A stretch of 51,054 nt of DNA from Candidatus Liptonbacteria bacterium. GTDB lineage: Bacteria > Patescibacteriota > Minisyncoccia > UBA6257 > 2-01-FULL-56-20. The notes beneath the pieces were generated by a model. It made no database searches and was not told the origin of the DNA. It worked only from the letters and a program-made list of their open reading frames with translations. The translations under genes were made by a program, and so were the position numbers. How positions within the stretch are numbered: the stretch's first letter is position 1; every line of letters starts with the position of its first letter. Positions 41,103 to 50,837 of this stretch are shown in pieces. Location of the stretch: positions 1-51,054 of the forward strand of contig JACPLI010000029.1 of NCBI GenBank assembly GCA_016186635.1, given 5' to 3'.

Positions 41103-42686
41103 ATGAAATACATAATCTACGCAAGGAAATCAACTGAAAGTGAAGAGCGACAGATTTTGAGCATTGAATCCCAAATTTCTGAATTAAAAGAATTTGCCGC
41201 CAAAGAAAATCTTGAAATTGTTGCTTCGCTTTGCGAAGCCCAAACTGCCAAAGAACCTGGGCGAATGAAATTTGCCGAAATGTTGTCATTTTTGGAATCA
41301 GGGAAAGCAGATGGGATTTTGAGTTGGAATCCGGATCGTCTCGCCCGAAATTCCATAGACGGAGGACAGATTATTTACCTGCTGGACACAGGAAAGATCA
41401 AAGACCTGAAGTTTCCAACCCATTGGTTTGAAAATACACCGCAAGGAAAATTCATGCTGAACATTGCCTTTGGGCAAAGCAAATACTATATAGATAATCT
41501 TTCTGAAAACATTAAGCGTGGACATAGAGCAAAGTTGAGAAAAGGTATCTGGCCGAGCTTTGCCCCACTCGGATATGTGAATAATCACAAAACGAGAGAC
41601 GTTGATATTGATAATGAAAAAGCTCCGCTAGTCCGTAAAGGTTTTGAACTTTACGCAAATGGTAAATATACACTGAAACAGATTGCTAAAATCTGGAAAG
41701 ATCTCGGACTGCGGAGCTACAAAGGCAATGTTCTAGCGGTTTCCTGTGTCCAGCGAATTTTGAAAAGCACATTCTACTATGGAATTTTTGAGTTCAATGG
41801 CGAGACGTATCAAGGATCGCACGAGCCGTTAATTTCAAAGAAACTTTTTGATAAGTGCCAAGAAGTAATGAAAGATCGCGGACATATCAAAACGAGGAAA
41901 GCCGATAAAACTTTTCCGTTTCGTGGATTATTTATCTGTGGAGAATGTGGCTGCGCGATAACGGCCGAGACACAAAAAGGACACAACTATTATCGCTGTA
42001 CCAAGAAACGAGAAGTGTGTTCACAAAAATATGTCCGCGAAGAAATACTGACAGAGCAAGTGAAAAATTTTCTTCAAAAAGTTTCTTTGCCGAGTCAAGA
42101 CACGGAAAAAGTTTTACGCGAATTAGACAAAGATGAGCAGAAAGCAAGAGAGGATAGCAAAATGTTCGTGGAAAATCTCAAAAGTGAGTTAGCCAATATT
42201 GAGGCAAGGTTAGACAAATTGCTTTCTGCTTACCTCGATGAAGTGATCACATCGGAAGAATATGCCGCGCAAAAACAAAAAATGCTCGACCAGAGAGTAG
42301 GGCTAAAAGAGAAAATCCACGAAATTGAAGACAAAGGAATGTTTTGGCTCGAACCGGCTCGTGCGTGGGTAAAATCCTTGAATCAAGCGGATAAATTGCT
42401 TTCGTCTGAGGACAAATCAGAAATGACAACATTTCTAAAACAAATCGGCTCGAACCATATTTTGATTGATAAATCCTTTTCTTTTTTGCCCAAAAAGCCC
42501 TTTCAAATCCTAGCCGAGCGGCGCGTTCCGCGCCACGAGGCATCATCTTTCCACTTGCGAAATCCTGAACTGCGGAGGGGGTGGGAATCGAACCCACAAG
42601 GCCCCTTACGAGGCCGCAGTTTAGCAAACTGCTGGAATGACCGTTATCCGACCCCTCCTTCTCACATGAGAAGAATATATAAATAG
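41103..42686 (+). CDS. Large serine recombinase
   Basis: A recombinase of about 470-527 residues. The catalytic Ser10 is in YARKSTESEER; the N-terminal resolvase domain continues to DRLARNSIDGG; a recombinase domain follows (FAPLGYVNNHKTRDV), then a zinc ribbon (CGECG, later CTKKREVCSQ) and a coiled coil. These enzymes integrate elements at specific att sites without tyrosine chemistry. The C terminus reads through the antisense of tRNA-Ser(GCT), so the normal stop has been lost by insertion. AT-rich compared with the genome. Confidence 0.92.
   Translation: MKYIIYARKSTESEERQILSIESQISELKEFAAKENLEIVASLCEAQTAKEPGRMKFAEMLSFLESGKADGILSWNPDRLARNSIDGGQIIYLLDTGKIKDLKFPTHWFENTPQGKFMLNIAFGQSKYYIDNLSENIKRGHRAKLRKGIWPSFAPLGYVNNHKTRDVDIDNEKAPLVRKGFELYANGKYTLKQIAKIWKDLGLRSYKGNVLAVSCVQRILKSTFYYGIFEFNGETYQGSHEPLISKKLFDKCQEVMKDRGHIKTRKADKTFPFRGLFICGECGCAITAETQKGHNYYRCTKKREVCSQKYVREEILTEQVKNFLQKVSLPSQDTEKVLRELDKDEQKAREDSKMFVENLKSELANIEARLDKLLSAYLDEVITSEEYAAQKQKMLDQRVGLKEKIHEIEDKGMFWLEPARAWVKSLNQADKLLSSEDKSEMTTFLKQIGSNHILIDKSFSFLPKKPFQILAERRVPRHEASSFHLRNPELRRGWESNPQGPLRGRSLANCWNDRYPTPPSHMRRIYK
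42520..42534. repeat. 6-3-6 hairpin in the recombinase tail
   Basis: GGCGCG-TTC-CGCGCC. Another 7-3-7 hairpin, GCTTCGC-TTT-GCGAAGC, lies in the same gene at 41223-41239. Confidence 0.7.
42573..42658 (-). tRNA. tRNA-Ser(GCT)
   Basis: On the minus strand: acceptor GGAGGGG/CCCCTCC, anticodon stem GCAGT/ACTGC around TTGCTAA (anticodon GCT), long variable arm, T-arm GTGGG-TTCGATT-CCCAC, discriminator G, CCA not encoded. It marks the right edge of the recombinase island. Confidence 0.93.
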
Positions 42687-42746: not shown

Positions 42747-44303
42747 ATGGCAAATAGCGAAAACAAAAACTTTCCGCCAAAGGCGGATCCGCCTCGGGCG
42801 GAAAAGCCGCGGCCGCCGGTCGTGGTGGTGATGGGACATGTGGATCACGGGAAGACGACGCTCCTCGACTACATCCGCAAGGCGAACGTCGCCGAGCGGG
42901 AGGCGGGAGGCATCACGCAGGCAGTGGGGGCCTACGAGATAGAACATCGAACGTCGAACTCCGAACAGTCGCAGAAGATTACTTTCATTGACACGCCCGG
43001 GCACGAGGCGTTTGTCGCCATGCGCTCGCGCGGCGCGGCAATTGCAGACCTCGCAATACTCGTCGTCGCAGGCGACGAAGGGGTGAAGCCGCAGACAAAA
43101 GAGGTTATCGGGATTTTGCAGAAGTCGGAGACGCCGTTCGTCGTGGCAATCACGAAGGTGGACAAGCCGGGCGCGAATGTCGAGAAGATAAAAAGCGAGC
43201 TTGCCGAGGCGGGGGTGTTGCTTGAGGGGTATGGCGGGCAGGTAAGCTGGCACGGGGTTTCCGCAAAAACAGGCGAGGGGGTGAATGACCTTCTTGATTT
43301 GATTCTCCTCACGGCGGAAGTGGAGGAGCTTTCGTATGACCCAGCGCTTTCCGCGTCCGGCTTCGTGCTTGAGGTGCGGAAAGACAAACGGCGGGGGCTT
43401 GAAGCGACGGTGATTGTAAAAGACGGCACACTCCGGCGGGGGGATATGATCGCGACATCCTCGGCGGCGGGCAAAGTGAAAATCCTCGAGGACTTTTTGG
43501 GGAAATCCGCCGTGGCGCTTGAGGCATCCGCACCCGCGCGCATCATCGGGTTTTCCGCCAAAGGCGGATCCGCCTCGGGCGGAGAAGGGGTTCCTCTCGT
43601 GGGCGAGGAGTTCCGGACGGGGGCTGAGCAGTTTGCGCAAAGCGATAAAGCGGCGGTTCCGCGCCTTGCGCGCGCGGGGAGGGAGATGGATTCAAACAAG
43701 GACGAGCACGTGCTCCGCGTGATGCTCAAAGCGGGAGACGCGGGTTCGCTTGAGGCGCTCGCGGTGGTCATCCGCGGCATTGACGCGAAGGAGATGACGG
43801 TGGAAGTGGTGAATGAATCAGTGGGGGACATTACCGACGGCGATGTGAAAGAAGCGATTGCCACGAACGCGGCGATTGTGGGGTTCAAGGTAAAACTTGA
43901 GCGGGGCGCGGCGAACCTCGCCGACGCGCAGCACATCCGGGTGGTGACGTCGAACATCGTCTACGACCTCCTTGAAGCCGTGGAAGAGTTTGTCCGGAGC
44001 GCGGGGAAACCCTTGATTGTGGGCGTGCTTGAAGTACTCGCCAGTTTCAACAAAGAAAAGCTGAATGAGCAGCTGGTGGGCGGGAAAGTTACGGAAGGAA
44101 TTTTCCGCAACAAAGGTATTTGTGAAGTAGTGCGCGTGGAGAACGGTATGGATAAAATTGTGGCGAGCGGGAAGGTGATGAACCTGCGCGACAAAAAGGC
44201 GGATGCGGCGCAGGCGGAGAAAGGGAAAGAAGCGGGGGTGCTCGTGGATGCGCCTGTGGAAATTATGAAAGGCGACAGGCTGGTGTTGCGGGAGAAGCGA
44301 TAG
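42747..44303 (+). CDS. infB: Translation initiation factor IF-2 (short form)
   Basis: A 518-residue GTPase lacking the long N-terminal region of other bacterial IF-2. G1 is GHVDHGKTT, G2 GGITQAVGAY, G3 DTPGHEAF, G4 TKVDKPG, then domains II-IV with the fMet-tRNA-binding C2 part (VLEVLASFNKEKL). It places initiator tRNA on the 30S subunit. Two identical 30-nt double hairpins are read in frame: near residue 10 (PPKADPPRAE) and near 270 (SAKGGSASGGE), the latter in domain II. rbfA follows as usual. Confidence 0.95.
   Translation: MANSENKNFPPKADPPRAEKPRPPVVVVMGHVDHGKTTLLDYIRKANVAEREAGGITQAVGAYEIEHRTSNSEQSQKITFIDTPGHEAFVAMRSRGAAIADLAILVVAGDEGVKPQTKEVIGILQKSETPFVVAITKVDKPGANVEKIKSELAEAGVLLEGYGGQVSWHGVSAKTGEGVNDLLDLILLTAEVEELSYDPALSASGFVLEVRKDKRRGLEATVIVKDGTLRRGDMIATSSAAGKVKILEDFLGKSAVALEASAPARIIGFSAKGGSASGGEGVPLVGEEFRTGAEQFAQSDKAAVPRLARAGREMDSNKDEHVLRVMLKAGDAGSLEALAVVIRGIDAKEMTVEVVNESVGDITDGDVKEAIATNAAIVGFKVKLERGAANLADAQHIRVVTSNIVYDLLEAVEEFVRSAGKPLIVGVLEVLASFNKEKLNEQLVGGKVTEGIFRNKGICEVVRVENGMDKIVASGKVMNLRDKKADAAQAEKGKEAGVLVDAPVEIMKGDRLVLREKR
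42773..42802. repeat. Tandem 15-nt hairpins in infB, copy 1
   Basis: TCCGCCAAAGGCGGA followed directly by TCCGCCTCGGGCGGA, each with a 6-bp stem and 3-nt loop. The same 30 nt recur at 43554. Confidence 0.92.
43554..43583. repeat. Tandem 15-nt hairpins in infB, copy 2
   Basis: Identical to copy 1 at 42773, read in a different frame and yielding Gly/Ser-rich residues within domain II. Confidence 0.92.
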
Positions 44304-44800: not shown

Positions 44801-44855
44801 CTTGAAAAAACATCGGCAAAAGGAGATACTGAAAAGGCGTTTTAGTTTGGCCTAG
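44801..44855 (+). pseudogene. 3' remnant of a GIY-YIG nuclease gene
   Basis: About 16 codons (LKKHRQKEILKRRFSLA) match the C terminus of the GIY-YIG protein at 44925 (HQQKEILKKRFGLA). As in that copy, the stop codon lies inside the following tRNA 5' end. The rest of the gene is gone. Confidence 0.6.
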
Positions 44856-44882
44856 TGGCGAAGTGGCTAACGCGGCGGTCTG
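44849..44882 (+). pseudogene. 5' half of a split, degraded tRNA-Cys-like gene
   Basis: GGCCTAG, TG, D-arm GCG/CGC with an AAGTGGCTAA loop, anticodon-stem strand GCGGT and loop start CTG. The G at 44882 would be anticodon position 34 (GCA). Acceptor and anticodon stem pair poorly with the 3' half at 45276, consistent with decay. Confidence 0.5.
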
Positions 44883-44912
44883 TCTCGCTACGCGAGATCC
44901 CGCGGAGCGGGA
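44883..44912 (+). repeat. Tandem 15-nt hairpins at the left tRNA-Cys junction
   Basis: TCTCGCTACGCGAGA then TCCCGCGGAGCGGGA, each 6-3-6, followed by CAAAAC as in a tRNA-Cys anticodon loop. Same geometry as the infB elements and as 45246. Confidence 0.85.
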
Positions 44913-44924
44913 CAAAACTTCCTT

Positions 44925-45173
44925 ATGTACTATGTTTATTTCCTCGCGAGCGAGCGGAATCGAGACCTTTACATTGGCTCGTCGGAAAGTTTAGAAAGAA
45001 GGGTGCGACTTCACAACGCAGGGAGAGTGAGGTCAACGAAGGCATATCGGCCATGGAAGGTGCTCGGTTATGAAACATACATAACAAGGAGTGAGGCAGT
45101 GCGACGGGAGATGTTCTTGAAAAATCACCAGCAAAAGGAGATACTGAAAAAGAGATTTGGATTGGCCGCGTAG
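44925..45173 (+). CDS. GIY-YIG nuclease domain protein
   Basis: An 82-residue single-domain nuclease: MYYVYFLASERNRDLYIGSS holds the GIY-YIG motif, R in the LERRVRLHNAG helix and the KSTKAYRPWK and EAVRREMFLK segments are conserved. This is the short UvrC/YhbQ-like type, also used as homing endonucleases. Its stop codon lies in the acceptor stem of the next tRNA-Cys. It sits inside the anticodon-loop insertion of the split tRNA, so it is a candidate mover. Confidence 0.88.
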   Translation: MYYVYFLASERNRDLYIGSSESLERRVRLHNAGRVRSTKAYRPWKVLGYETYITRSEAVRREMFLKNHQQKEILKKRFGLAA

Positions 45174-45235
45174 CCAAGTGGTAAGGCAAGGGTCTGCAAA
45201 ACCCTTATACGTGGGTTCAATTCCCACCGCGGCCT
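45164..45235 (+). tRNA. tRNA-Cys(GCA), intact, nested
   Basis: Acceptor GGCCGCG/CGCGGCC, D-arm GCC/GGC, anticodon stem AGGGT/ACCCT around CTGCAAA (anticodon GCA), T-arm GTGGG-TTCAATT-CCCAC, discriminator T as usual for Cys. It lies between the halves of the degraded tRNA-Cys-like gene. Confidence 0.93.
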
Positions 45236-45245
45236 CAAGGGTCTG

Positions 45246-45275
45246 TCTCCCTGTGGGAGATGTCCCGAAGGGACA
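45246..45275 (+). repeat. Tandem 15-nt hairpins at the right tRNA-Cys junction
   Basis: TCTCCCTGTGGGAGA then TGTCCCGAAGGGACA, preceded by GGTCTG and followed by CAAAAC. Compared with 44883 the stems differ at several positions but pairing is kept, that is, compensatory changes. Confidence 0.85.
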
Positions 45276-45314
45276 CAAAACGACTATGCGGGGGTTCGAA
45301 TCCCCCTCTAGCCT
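45276..45314 (+). pseudogene. 3' half of the split tRNA-Cys-like gene
   Basis: CAAAACGAC (loop end and stem strand), TATGC, T-arm GGGGG-TTCGAAT-CCCCC, acceptor TCTAGCC and T discriminator. Confidence 0.5.
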
Positions 45315-45319
45315 CGAAC

Positions 45320-45820
45320 ATGAAAGTCCAGAAACTTTTTATCGCAACCAAAGCATTCATCGTGCGCAACCCCGTAAATCCCGCCGAGGCGGGACACGGG
45401 GCAAGCGGGAAGGTTTTGATTGTCCGTGAATCAAATAAGTACGAAGAGGGGACGAATGCGGCGAAGTTTGACGTTCCGGGCGGGCGACTCACGCCCGGCG
45501 AGCGGTTTGATGGAAGTTTGCGGCGGGAGGTAAAAGAGGAAACCGGGCTTGAGGTGAAAATCGGGAAACCGTTTTTCGTGAACGAGTGGCGCCCCGTGGT
45601 GAAGGGCGAGCAGTGGCAAGTTGTCGGCATTTTCTTTGAATGTACCCTGAAGTCGGACTTCTCGGAGAAGTCCGACTTCCCGAAATTGACGGATGCGAAA
45701 GTGATTTTAAGTGGAGACCACGATGCGTTTGAGTGGATTCTGCCGGAGGAATACGCGAAGTACCCGCTTATCGAGAATCTCAAGGTTGCATTTGAGGCAT
45801 ATCTTGCGAGGAGGCAATAA
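45320..45820 (+). CDS. Nudix hydrolase
   Basis: A 166-residue Nudix protein. The Nudix box is GGRLTPGERFDGSLRREV followed by KEETGLEV, complete for metal-dependent pyrophosphohydrolase activity. Two palindromes are read in frame: NPAEAGHG near residue 20 and LKSDFSEKSDF near 113. The substrate (a nucleoside diphosphate derivative) is unknown. The start at 45320 begins just after the split tRNA. Confidence 0.9.
   Translation: MKVQKLFIATKAFIVRNPVNPAEAGHGASGKVLIVRESNKYEEGTNAAKFDVPGGRLTPGERFDGSLRREVKEETGLEVKIGKPFFVNEWRPVVKGEQWQVVGIFFECTLKSDFSEKSDFPKLTDAKVILSGDHDAFEWILPEEYAKYPLIENLKVAFEAYLARRQ
45379..45394. repeat. Palindrome in the Nudix gene, copy 1
   Basis: TCCCGC-CGAG-GCGGGA in frame. Confidence 0.7.
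45649..45679. repeat. 31-nt palindrome in the Nudix gene, copy 2
   Basis: GAAGTCGGACTTCT and AGAAGTCCGACTTC form a 14-bp perfect stem with a CGG loop. It encodes the repetitive KSDFSEKSDF. Confidence 0.85.
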
Positions 45821-45841: not shown

Positions 45842-45925
45842 GGGCGAGTGGCGTAACTGGCAGCCGCACACGACTTAAGATCGTGTGGCCGAAAGGCCGT
45901 GTGGGTTCGACCCCCACCTCGCCCA
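45842..45925 (+). tRNA. tRNA-Leu(TAA)
   Basis: Acceptor GGGCGAG/CTCGCCC, anticodon stem CACGA/TCGTG around CTTAAGA (anticodon TAA), variable arm GGCC-GAAA-GGCC, T-arm GTGGG-TTCGACC-CCCAC, discriminator A. Its 3' end is repeated at 46051. Confidence 0.93.
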
Positions 45926-46064
45926 CAATGTTGAGTGTTCCGAGGTGGGAGTTGAACCGAAAGAGGGGTCGGGAGGAAAGTATGAGGTTCCTCCCGTGTA
46001 GGAAATTACTCAAAACCGAGGGTTGTGAGGGAGCGAAGCGACGTTCGCCTCCCACCTCGCCCAC
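45913..46064 (+). mobile_element. Element-like segment bounded by a duplicated tRNA-Leu 3' end
   Basis: CCCACCTCGCCCAC occurs at 45913-45926 (tRNA-Leu 3' end) and again at 46051-46064. Inside, CGAGGTGGGAG (45941) and CTCCCACCTCG (46049) are inverted. The enclosed 124 nt carry the 43-nt structured repeat. This is what an integration at a tRNA 3' end, then shrinkage, would leave. Confidence 0.55.
45963..46045 (+). ncRNA. Structured RNA repeat, copy 1
   Basis: The first 43 nt (45963-46005) are identical to 47386-47428: a CGGGAGG/CCTCCCG stem with an AAAGTATGAGGTT loop, then GTGTAGGAAA. A small GGAGC-GAA-GC hairpin followed by GACG ends it, as in copy 2. No known RNA family is recognised. Confidence 0.5.
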
Positions 46065-46159
46065 TTGAAAAGTACCTGCATCTTTCCCTATACTCCCTCC
46101 CGAGGGTTCCTTAAAACGAGGAAGGGGCTGCACAACAAACATCAACGAAAGGAGTTGTT

Positions 46160-46468
46160 GTGGCGCACGTAAATCATTTGGGGCCGAAGGCAATAGGAAA
46201 TGCTCGGCAACACACGATTATCAGATATGCACGGCCGTTTCTCTACAAGGTGGATGGTTGGTCAGAAGTAAAGAGATGGACATCTTCGACTATCACTGGG
46301 GCGGGTCGTGCGGAAAGGGGAATTAGGGTTTGGTATGTGAATGTGGGGCTTCGGATTAAAGTCTACGACACAACCGAGTCCCAAGGGTTTTTCCTCTACA
46401 CGCACCAGCGGGAAGCGGTGATAGAGCGGTTGCGCGGGGAGTTTGAATCGTGTGAGATAGTTCAATGA
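46160..46468 (+). CDS. Hypothetical protein, strong ribosome site
   Basis: A 102-residue protein starting at GTG, with AAAGGAG five nt upstream, one of few good Shine-Dalgarno sequences in the window. It appears to be a small beta-rich protein (WYVNVGLRIKVYDTTESQGFFLY). No family recognised. It is followed by a short spacer and the NYN RNase. Confidence 0.6.
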   Translation: MAHVNHLGPKAIGNARQHTIIRYARPFLYKVDGWSEVKRWTSSTITGAGRAERGIRVWYVNVGLRIKVYDTTESQGFFLYTHQREAVIERLRGEFESCEIVQ

Positions 46469-46525
46469 AGCGGCGGCTTGAAAAGAGTCGCCGTTTTCAT
46501 TTGGGGGCAGCGCCCCGTGGGGCGG

Positions 46526-46553
46526 TTGTTTTCAGTGATTTTTGCGATACAAT
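46526..46553 (+). promoter_or_regulatory. Promoter of the NYN gene
   Basis: TTGTTT, 16-nt spacer, TACAAT. The -10 ends 6 nt before the ATG. Confidence 0.5.
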
Positions 46554-46559
46554 ATTCGA

Positions 46560-47102
46560 ATGGTCAGCGAGCAGAAGCCGTTTGAGGAAAAGAAGCGAGT
46601 TAACCTCGCCTACATTGATGAGGCAAACCTCGATAAAGCACTACGCAATCAGTTGAATTGGAAGCTTGATTATAAAAAGTTCCGCGTGTGGCTTACCGAA
46701 AAATATAAGGTTGAACGCGCGTACATTTTCATTGGTTTGATTCCCAAGTATAAAAACCTTTATAAATATTTTCAGGATTGCGGATTTAAACTTGCCTTCA
46801 AGGACGTAATTTATCAGAAAGGTGGCATGCCTAAGGGCAACTGCGATTCTGACTTGCTTATGCAGGCAAGTGTTGATTTTTACGAAGGCGATCTTGCAAA
46901 TGCCGTTCTTGTGGCGAGTGACGGAGATTACGCGCCGCTGGTGAAGTTACTGCATAGCAGGGGGCGGCTTGCAATAATACTTTCGCCGACCACGGTGGAG
47001 AAATGTTCGCTTCTCTTAAAAAGGACGGGAGCACCCATTGCGTACATAAACGATCAGCGCTCCATTTTGGAACTGAAAGAGCCCACAACTCTACTCCCCT
47101 AA
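46560..47102 (+). CDS. NYN-domain (PIN-like) RNase
   Basis: A 180-residue protein with the NYN/LabA fold: AYIDEANLD holds the first acidic pair, CDSDLLMQA and VASDGDYAPLV the others, the four-Asp metal site expected of PIN-like nucleases. It probably cleaves RNA. Leaderless promoter layout. Confidence 0.85.
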   Translation: MVSEQKPFEEKKRVNLAYIDEANLDKALRNQLNWKLDYKKFRVWLTEKYKVERAYIFIGLIPKYKNLYKYFQDCGFKLAFKDVIYQKGGMPKGNCDSDLLMQASVDFYEGDLANAVLVASDGDYAPLVKLLHSRGRLAIILSPTTVEKCSLLLKRTGAPIAYINDQRSILELKEPTTLLP

Positions 47103-47110
47103 AATGAAAA

Positions 47111-47148
47111 AGCCCCCGATGCGGACGGAACCGCATAAGGGTCTCTTT
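47111..47148 (+). terminator. Hairpin with GGACGGAACC loop after the NYN gene
   Basis: ATGCGG-ACGGAA-CCGCAT within weaker outer pairs (AGCCC.../GGGTCT). A hairpin with the same loop and closing pairs precedes pheT. Confidence 0.55.
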
Positions 47149-47319
47149 CGTGGTGAATACTTGCATACTACACCTTGACTTGGAAAATGCAACAAGTGGA
47201 TAAATAAGCCCTATAGAACCTACATAATTCGACTTTATCCACAGCAGTTATTTCTTGCGGCAGTTTTTGAGTGAACTGCCGCTTTCCTTTTGTGAGGGCT
47301 TGTCTCGTGTCCCGCCGTG

Positions 47320-47506
47320 GCGGGATTTCGAGGGTTGTACCCCGTGGTTCCGCTCCGGCGGAACTTTACGGGGTGTGCCCCGAAGGAGGGGTCGGGAGGA
47401 AAGTATGAGGTTCCTCCCGTGTAGGAAAACCGTCAGCAGGCGGAAGTTAGAAACCGTGGGTTTCTAAGGAGCCCCGAAAGTAGCGGGGCGACGGGTGTGG
47501 ATAACC
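47320..47506 (+). ncRNA. Structured RNA repeat, copy 2 with extended stems
   Basis: Contains the 43-nt repeat (47386-47428), preceded by ACCCCGT...ACGGGGT around a GTTCCGC/GCGGAAC hairpin, and followed by AAACC-type hairpins and GCCCCG-AAAGTAG-CGGGGC-GACG. The 575-nt gap from 47103 to 47678 holds no convincing gene except this RNA-like region. An upstream TCCCGC-CGTG-GCGGGA hairpin belongs to the same palindrome-rich stretch. Confidence 0.5.
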
Positions 47507-48848: not shown

Positions 48849-50837
48849 ATGTTGATATCGTACCAGTGGTTGCAAAGTTATTTTGAAGAAAAACTTCCGT
48901 CTCCGGAGAAGCTTGCGGAGTTTTTTACGTTTCACTTCTCGGAAGTGGAATCCCTCGACAGGTTCGATGGACTCACTGCAGGCAAGCTCGGGACAGGGGA
49001 TTGGATGTTCGATTTGAAGATTCTTCCCGACCGCGCCTGCTACGCCCTCTCGCATCGCGGTGTGGCGCGGGAAATTGCTGCGGTGTTGGGGAGAGAAATT
49101 ATGCTCCCGAAGTATGCGTCACCGGCGGTGGCGAGCACAGACAACCTTTCAATTGTGATTGAAGACAAGAATGATTGCGCCCGCTATATCGGGCGCCGTG
49201 TGGAGAATCTGAAAGTGGGCGAGTCGCGCCAGGAGCTCAAAGACTGGCTCGCGGCGATCGGCCAGCGTTCCATCAACAACGTGGTAGACGCGGCAAATTA
49301 TGTGATGTTCGATATGGGCCAGCCGCTCCACGCGTTTGACGCGGGGGTTGTGCGCGGCGCGGTGGTGGTGAGGCGGGCGAAGAAGGGCGAAAAAATTGAG
49401 CTCTTAAAGAGTGAGAAAATGGCTTCAGGGGGGATTCCCGCTGACTGGAGACGCACCGGTTTTTTGGATGAAAATACTTTGGTAATTGCTGATGATGAAG
49501 GGCTATTGGGTATTGCGGGCGTGAAGGGCGGGAAACGCGCGGGAGTGGGTCCCACGACGACGCGGTTGATTCTCGAGGCGGCGCACTTTAATCCGACACT
49601 GCTTCGCAAAACCTCGGAGCGGTTTGATTTACGCACCGATGCCTCAAAGCGATTCGAAAACAATCCTTCGGCGGCGCTTGCGGCAATTGCAATGCAGGAA
49701 TTTTCCGCACTGCTGGCAATGACATGTCCCGATGCAAAGTTCGGGGAAGTAGTAGATGAGTATCCTGCGCCGGAGGCGCCGCACGCCGTTGAGGTTCAAG
49801 TGGCAATGATTGAGGCGAAGCTTGGACTAAAACTTGGCGCCGAAGCTATTCGAGGAACGCTCGAGCGGTTGGGTATTGTGGTGTTGCAGAAGGGAAGCGG
49901 AACATTTACGCTTCAAATTCCGCCGGAGCGGCAGGATTTACGGATCCCCGAAGACATTGTGGAGGAGGTTGGGCGGCTCGTCGGGTACGACAAAATCCCC
50001 GCGACACTCCCGCCTTCGCCCCCGGAGGGCTACGGCGGGCAATGTCCGCCAAAGCAGTTCTATTGGGAGTGGCACATCCGCGCATTTTTGGTGGGCGAAG
50101 GATTCTCGGAAGTGATGACATCCTCGTTTTCCGAAAAAGGGGAAGTGGCAATCGAGAAACCGCTTGCGGAAGACAAAAAATATGCCAGGTCCCAGTTGCG
50201 CGGCTCTTTTGCCGCGGCGCTTGGTATGAACGCGCGGAATGCGCCGCTTTTCGGCGCGGATGAAGTGAGAATGTTTGAAATCGGGAAAGTCTTCCCCGCC
50301 TTCGCTAAAGCTACGGCGGGCAAGCCGGCCGCGGGAGAGCACACCGCGCTTGCAATCGGATATGCGGGACCTAAAAAGAAGGGGAAGGATATGGTCGCGG
50401 AAACGGTAAAAAAACTTTCCTCCCATCTTGGCGCGGAGCTCAAAGGCGAGACAAAAGAAGGCGTATTCGAGTGCGATCTCGATGCGGTTATAGAAAAACT
50501 TCCCGAGCCAAGGGAGTGGAACCTGAAAATTGAAAATTCGAAAATTGAACATTTCCGCCCGTTTTCCCAATATCCCTTCATCGTGCGCGACGTGGCGCTC
50601 TTTGTGCCCGCAGGGACAAAACCAGAGGCAATCCTGAAATGTATTCAAAAAGAGGCGGGGACGCTCGCGGTGCGCTCGTGGAAGTTCGACGAATTTGAAA
50701 AAGGCGGGAAGCAATCCTTCGCGTTCCGCATCGTATTCCAGTCGTTCGAGAAAACCTTGACCGACGCGGAAGCAAACGCAGTGATGGAGAAGATTTACGT
50801 GGTGCTCAAAAAGGAATTCCAGGCAGAGATCCGGTAG
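48849..50837 (+). CDS. pheT: Phenylalanyl-tRNA synthetase beta subunit (short)
   Basis: A 662-residue subunit lacking the N-terminal OB-fold tRNA-binding domain; it starts in B1 (MLISYQWLQSYFEE). The B3/B4 editing domain (INNVVDAANYVMFDMGQPLHAFD), the B5 helix-turn-helix and the C-terminal anticodon-binding FDX-ACB domain (FPFIVRDVALFV) are present. Two related palindromes are read in frame, giving PPSPPEGYGGQ near residue 390 and FAKATAGKPA near 485. Confidence 0.94.
   Translation: MLISYQWLQSYFEEKLPSPEKLAEFFTFHFSEVESLDRFDGLTAGKLGTGDWMFDLKILPDRACYALSHRGVAREIAAVLGREIMLPKYASPAVASTDNLSIVIEDKNDCARYIGRRVENLKVGESRQELKDWLAAIGQRSINNVVDAANYVMFDMGQPLHAFDAGVVRGAVVVRRAKKGEKIELLKSEKMASGGIPADWRRTGFLDENTLVIADDEGLLGIAGVKGGKRAGVGPTTTRLILEAAHFNPTLLRKTSERFDLRTDASKRFENNPSAALAAIAMQEFSALLAMTCPDAKFGEVVDEYPAPEAPHAVEVQVAMIEAKLGLKLGAEAIRGTLERLGIVVLQKGSGTFTLQIPPERQDLRIPEDIVEEVGRLVGYDKIPATLPPSPPEGYGGQCPPKQFYWEWHIRAFLVGEGFSEVMTSSFSEKGEVAIEKPLAEDKKYARSQLRGSFAAALGMNARNAPLFGADEVRMFEIGKVFPAFAKATAGKPAAGEHTALAIGYAGPKKKGKDMVAETVKKLSSHLGAELKGETKEGVFECDLDAVIEKLPEPREWNLKIENSKIEHFRPFSQYPFIVRDVALFVPAGTKPEAILKCIQKEAGTLAVRSWKFDEFEKGGKQSFAFRIVFQSFEKTLTDAEANAVMEKIYVVLKKEFQAEIR
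50009..50039. repeat. CCCGCC/GGCGGG palindrome in pheT, copy 1
   Basis: CCCGCCTTCGC and GCTACGGCGGG arms around a variable centre; the same arms are found at 50295. Confidence 0.8.
50295..50320. repeat. CCCGCC/GGCGGG palindrome in pheT, copy 2
   Basis: Same outer arms as copy 1 with a shorter centre (GCTAAAGC). Gives the FAKATAGKPA peptide often seen in CPR proteins. Confidence 0.8.

Follow-up and report, generated by a model that had tools for sequence, protein, structure and literature searches.

Homing-endonuclease insertions in the cox2, atp6 and rps3 genes of fungal mitochondrial DNA regenerate the C-terminus of the gene and leave duplicated C-termini behind (PMC4019555). Integrative elements using a tyrosine or serine integrase restore the 3' end of a tRNA and leave a displaced att-like repeat. 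The locus analysed here lies in a stretch of 51,054 nucleotides from a Candidatus Liptonbacteria bacterium, the whole of which is referred to as the window. It resembles the former insertions in that a conserved gene is hit, with a complete end upstream and the old end displaced downstream, and the latter elements in its restored tRNA 3' end and displaced repeat. The two RNA copies of the window are read here, on a balance of evidence that favours this view without settling it, as members of a family of ORF-less mobile elements with a structured RNA core and a duplicated target end.

The preliminary description, made from sequence alone, had reported two copies of an unrecognised structured RNA sharing an exact 43-nt repeat with a CGGGAGG stem, set in hairpin-rich surroundings and each closing with a GC hairpin and then GACG, with copy 1 linked to tRNA-Leu and copy 2 upstream of pheS. 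These observations held: the 43 nt from 45963 and from 47386 are identical and contain CGGGAGG...CCTCCCG, within a repeat pair of 49 nt (45957-46005 and 47380-47428, 98% identity, spacing 1423), both copies end as described, and both regions outperformed dinucleotide shuffles in folding (z = -3.8 for copy 1, z = -5.2 for copy 2). Copy 1 is positioned immediately 3' of tRNA-Leu(UAA) (45842-45926) and copy 2 upstream of pheS. The count of two was incomplete, with about 13 core copies of what we read as a dispersed mobile family in the host genome, and the flanking arms had not been described; copies of the tRNA 3' end bracket copy 1 and comparable arms are found at copy 2.

The usual layout, derived by reading individual loci, consists of a complete gene end (X), a short spacer that often holds a terminator, the beginning of X repeated in inverted orientation (X'), a few bases, the core, and a second direct copy of X (X''). 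X' is able to pair with X'', closing the core as helix P1. The parts of the two copies were assigned as follows (window positions).

45904 to 45926, plus strand: copy 1 X, the functional 3' end (T-arm and acceptor) of tRNA-Leu(UAA), GGTTCGACCCCCACCTCGCCCAC, from a repeat search
45941 to 45958, plus strand: copy 1 X', the inverted tRNA-end copy, CGAGGTGGGAGTTGAACC, 89% complementary to X; the 5' arm of helix P1, with a conceivable guide role
45959 to 46043, plus strand: copy 1 conserved core, comprising AGGGGUC, P2, GUGUAGGAAA, P4, P5 and GCGACG (covariance model, 94 bits)
45970 to 45996, plus strand: copy 1 P2 hairpin, CGGGAGGAA...TTCCTCCCG, from fold and covariation
46009 to 46029, plus strand: copy 1 P4 hairpin, CTCAAAACC-GAG-GGTTGTGAG, from fold and covariation
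46033 to 46039, plus strand: copy 1 P5, a minimal GC-GAA-GC hairpin whose length differs within the family
46043 to 46064, plus strand: copy 1 X'', the displaced second tRNA-Leu 3' end, GTTCGCCTCCCACCTCGCCCAC, 91% identical
47195 to 47203, plus strand: copy 2 possible X, AGTGGATAA, on weak evidence
47235 to 47248, plus strand: copy 2 X', TTATCCACAGCAGT, with roughly 130 nt of GC palindromes between it and the core
47380 to 47493, plus strand: copy 2 conserved core, in which P5 is long and a CCG...CGG hairpin (P3) is added (covariance model, 91 bits)
47393 to 47419, plus strand: copy 2 P2 hairpin, from repeat and fold
47447 to 47467, plus strand: copy 2 P4 hairpin, TTAGAAACC-GTG-GGTTTCTAA, from fold and alignment, with compensatory changes relative to P4 of copy 1
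47471 to 47489, plus strand: copy 2 P5 hairpin, GCCCCG...CGGGGC, then GACG
47491 to 47504, plus strand: copy 2 X'', ACGGGTGTGGATAA

The only two perfect DnaA-box-like sequences of the window (TTATCCACA; 47235-47243 and 47496-47504) flank copy 2 in opposite orientations and coincide with its X' and X''. A replication origin at copy 2 was rejected, as GC skew does not change sign. An NYN-domain (RNase-like) protein is encoded between the two RNA copies (46542-47102) and was not recurrent at other copies. Short GC palindromes of the CCCGCCGAGGCGGGA type are scattered at 45370-45400, 47300-47340, 42747-44303 and 48849-50837; they are intergenic and also occur in frame in infB, pheT and a NUDIX ORF, encoding peptides like PPKADPPRAEK.

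Two outcomes had been named beforehand as refuting an unrecognised structured RNA, namely a confident Rfam match and a lack of covariation in homologues, and neither was obtained. Rfam 15 at gathering level identified only tRNAs in the window, and a search of nine loci at E<=5 returned nothing plausible on the element. In 109 aligned copies 98.5% of cells were paired, and cells changed on both sides numbered 305, compared with 99.5 in shuffles, while slid control structures failed. This alignment was fitted to the covariance model and is hence biased toward the modelled structure; a MAFFT alignment of nine sequences gave the same structural answer. P2 was 99.5% paired over 106 distinct sequences, with both-side changes at 4/7 pairs, and P4 was 98.4% paired, with both-side changes at 7/9 pairs. 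P2 and P4 are thus well supported and covary strongly, and P5 is variable; the unpaired parts RRGGGGUC, GUGUMGGAA and GCGACG are conserved. The claim of an unrecognised structured RNA is therefore supported by the missing Rfam family, the model-detected homologues and the covariation, incomplete as the original reading was. On the strand read here G-U pairs outnumbered A-C mismatches by 27 to 11, which favours this strand as the structured one and, in turn, RNA as the probable active form, perhaps as a component of a ribonucleoprotein, with the caveat that RNA activity is unproven and no expression data were available.

About ten places were found by DNA search in the window's genome (921 kb, 97.9% complete), and nine of these were used to build the covariance model (CM). 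The CM search of CPR genomes proposed in the preliminary description was run with this model and recovered homologues across order and class: 13 matches at E<1e-4 in the window's genome, matches in 37/61 relatives (mostly of the same order, with a maximum of 16 copies per genome) and in 60 of the 188 genomes of the class. In a phylum-wide sample 12/145 genomes had a match, half of these outside the class, where the RNA is only sporadic. Scanning 84,980 species genomes for an exact pattern gave at least 111 stretches whose displayed titles were almost only Patescibacteria, including Lipton-, Staskawicz-, Wolfe-, Nealson-, Harrison- and Yanofskybacteria and others. No match to the RNA family was found in the viral contigs, phages and plasmids searched.

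The elements are approximately 100-200 nt long and without an ORF, the conserved part being the structured RNA. Direct flank repeats scoring >=12 were detected at 89/150 elements, as against 6/450 with flanks swapped; the roughly 40% of copies without a clear direct repeat may reflect age or another origin. Identical direct repeats of 96 nt (L068), 58 nt (L166) and 32 nt (L143) probably represent recent target duplications. An exact match of >=8 nt between X' and X was present in 101/154 elements and in 17/154 with flanks swapped (tRNA elements, 63/80 and 11/80; non-tRNA elements, 38/74 and 6/74), and the linker from X' to the core had a median of 3 nt. In two tandem loci (L142, L074) X'' of the first unit doubles as X of the next. 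Over the columns common to both, X' and X'' were about equally similar to X, a result that hinges on the choice of columns, since other choices gave opposite, biased answers. The X/X'' duplication of about 17-100 bp runs from the insertion point past the gene end, often past a terminator or promoter, and the target gene therefore stays intact.

In the window's genome hppA carries an element, and the gene is uninterrupted in two genomes of the same genus (G001, G002) and in the other relatives with a homologous hppA end. The tRNA-Leu(UAA) element is present in G000 and G001 and absent from eight other genomes compared. These empty sites in most relatives, together with the shared layout, lead us to infer ORF-less mobile elements. 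In hppA the C-terminal residues encoded by X and X'' are the same, with numerous synonymous differences between the two; the upstream copy looks richer in A+T than the remainder of the gene, suggesting its arrival with the element or by recombination. Within-genome spread is seen in one genome whose cores before nusG and nusA are identical, and sites recurring across genera carry cores that are not each other's closest relatives. The recurrent sites are listed below; apart from the proteins that were scanned for, target-protein names are what we take them to be from the translated ends.

tRNA genes, in the T-arm at GTTC
rpsI, before codons Q-W (P|QW), in about ten genomes
translational GTPases, at IIAHID (GTPase starts)
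GT2 C-terminus, at FWVTPK
rplK C-terminus
rpsG C-terminus

The essential genes hit at their ends (tRNAs, ribosomal proteins) thus stay whole, and the insertions are dispersed and lineage-variable, with the target duplicated, the inverted arm at a fixed place and the core folded.

At least 16 of 160 sites are leader-like, with the copy at a constant distance ahead of a start codon or of a 16S rRNA gene (for example L145 2642-2756, upstream of 16S rRNA), and these do not fit simple gene-end insertion. The start-codon context is ACCAYNATG or GTGACTTCWATG, with no obvious SD, and the genes, which we take by inspection to be nusA, nusB, nusG, secY, rpsN, rpsR, rplN, rpmF, atpE, clpC, priA and rpiB, follow the copies. 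The placement implies transcription of the core at least there, which is probable, with no expression data to confirm it.

Candidate partner proteins and known classes were examined in turn. A TnpB/Cas12f-type nuclease was found in 0/61 genomes, with a control search positive in 6 known genomes, and membership of the HEARO/OMEGA (TnpB) class was rejected on this basis; a search for IscB (RRXRR) was likewise negative in all 61, but control genomes also gave no signal. Y1 (HUH) transposases occur in 14/61 genomes and are missing from the copy-rich window genome (13 copies), leading to rejection of REP/IS200-like membership. Reverse transcriptase RVT_1 was not found in G000, G003 and G024 (9-13 copies each; drafts 94-98% complete), and retroelements (group II, retron, DGR, SINE-like) were rejected for its absence from these copy-rich genomes; neither enzyme is a required partner. 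Group I intron membership was rejected for want of an Rfam intron-core match. No ORF is present between X and X'', which excluded a homing-endonuclease element, and a tRNA-integrating element was rejected on the approximately 0.1-0.2 kb between repeats and the missing ORF. When assessed against MITEs, the core ends (RRGGGGTC...GCGACG) are not inverted repeats and the target duplications are long and variable; DDE transposases were outside the search. The number of GIY-YIG genes correlated with copy number (rho 0.50, p 3e-5, 61 genomes, uncorrected for relatedness), but only 2/109 copies had such a gene within 2.5 kb and several genomes rich in copies have few of them; a linked GIY-YIG gene was rejected, since number correlates and position does not. 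Clustering of the ORFs beside copies for a recurrent partner returned target and housekeeping genes only, plus one HTH protein with a LAGLIDADG-like segment, located <=2.5 kb from four copies (L072, L053, L103, L124), which remains a tentative partner. The mobilising enzyme is unidentified, no linked protein having been found in these searches.

Under the mobile-element reading, an enzyme acting in trans would make a staggered cut in the target, the core would then be copied in, and fill-in of the staggered ends would yield X and X''. X' may derive from guide pairing with the target or from the broken target end folding back and being copied, in many cases with the turn at the terminator palindrome. 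Such a turn is clear in L143 and L040; in L068 approximately 20 unrelated nt lie between duplication and inverted arm, which speaks for a guide origin. Whether X' is a targeting guide, as it might be, or a fold-back copy is undecided, and adaptation to new targets is undemonstrated. Selection would retain only insertions whose duplication extends past the gene end. A bolder reading, put forward only as a possibility, takes X' and the core as a guide RNA and the family as a natural 'home and rescue' drive: a trans-acting nuclease, as yet unknown and guided by the arm complementary to the conserved gene end, would cut empty alleles, and repair would bring in the element along with one more copy of that end, the essential gene staying in working order.

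The copies could instead be a host cis-regulatory RNA, a leader for housekeeping genes and a trailer after tRNAs, copied because it is useful. The leader-like copies with their shared context and the identical cores before nusG and nusA support this; most copies, however, occupy the opposite setting, behind gene ends or antisense to gene starts and accompanied by a duplication of the target, and the leader genes share no common pathway, so that we regard it as unlikely. We are similarly doubtful of a DNA-level element, whose single-stranded hairpins are recognised by a nuclease or recombinase (for instance the abundant small GIY-YIG proteins) and whose RNA is incidental. It would accommodate the correlation of GIY-YIG number with copy number, the lack of an obvious promoter between terminator and core, and the hairpin that X-spacer-X' would make in single-stranded DNA, but the preference for G-U on the strand read, the probable transcription of the leader-like copies, the several copy-rich genomes with few GIY-YIG genes and the rarity of such genes next to copies argue against it.

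Least credible of all is a remnant origin, in which homing-endonuclease or integrase insertions regenerated gene ends and left the RNA behind as their noncoding residue. Regenerated ends and displaced copies are known for fungal mitochondrial homing endonucleases (PMC4019555), tRNA-integrating elements likewise regenerate gene ends, and 1 kb upstream the window contains a split tRNA-Cys with a GIY-YIG ORF. Against this, compensatory changes accompany conservation of the core throughout the class, which is unexpected of remnants, no ORF-bearing form was found, and the inverted X' is left unexplained.

The tRNA-Cys locus (window 44803-45317) was noted in its own right. The gene is apparently split at the anticodon loop, its 5' half lying near 44853 and its 3' half near 45281, and both halves have two-hairpin inserts there; between the halves are a GIY-YIG ORF (44925-45173) and an intact tRNA-Cys (45164-45236), and a second GIY-YIG C-terminus remnant is at 44803-44849. 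It has the look of another gene-regenerating homing insertion. Separately, at 41103-42686 a large serine recombinase, set in low-GC DNA, ends over tRNA-Ser(GCT) (42572-42658, minus strand); an integrated element is probable here.

Patescibacteria account for a large, mostly uncultured share of bacterial diversity. If the mobile-element reading is true, they harbour a new kind of mobile element, reaching 16 copies in a genome, which enters genes for tRNAs and ribosomal proteins yet leaves them intact, and possibly a new programmable (base-pairing) DNA-targeting system. For annotation it matters that gene ends are displaced, that ORFs arise spuriously and that leader-like copies precede nusA, nusB, nusG, secY and 16S rRNA.

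No account of an ORF-less, RNA-cored element with an inverted target copy was found in the open-access literature searched (the search was incomplete, with subscription papers and preprints outside it), and the family, carried by tiny Patescibacteria, is apparently undescribed. Whereas the homing-endonuclease insertions are of kb size with an endonuclease ORF, the elements here have no ORF, a folded RNA core and an inverted target copy. Unlike tRNA integrative elements, the family has no integrase gene, spans only about 0.1-0.2 kb, possesses the inverted arm and structured core, and also occupies the ends of ribosomal-protein and GTPase genes. It shares with HEARO/OMEGA RNAs (IscB, TnpB) a structured RNA beside a target-matching arm, a possible guide geometry and stand-alone copies, but has no Rfam match and no TnpB in any relative, duplicates the target end, and bears its arm as an inverted copy 5' of the core. 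Like MITEs and REP elements it is short, ORF-less, hairpin-rich, multi-copy and presumably moved in trans; it differs in lacking clear terminal inverted repeats of its own, in its long, variable target duplications ending beyond the gene end, and in the absence of a Y1 transposase from the copy-rich window genome. With group I and group II introns it has in common a structured RNA whose 5' segment can pair with target sequence on either side, but it is without an intron core or reverse transcriptase, and the gene is restored by duplication, not by splicing.
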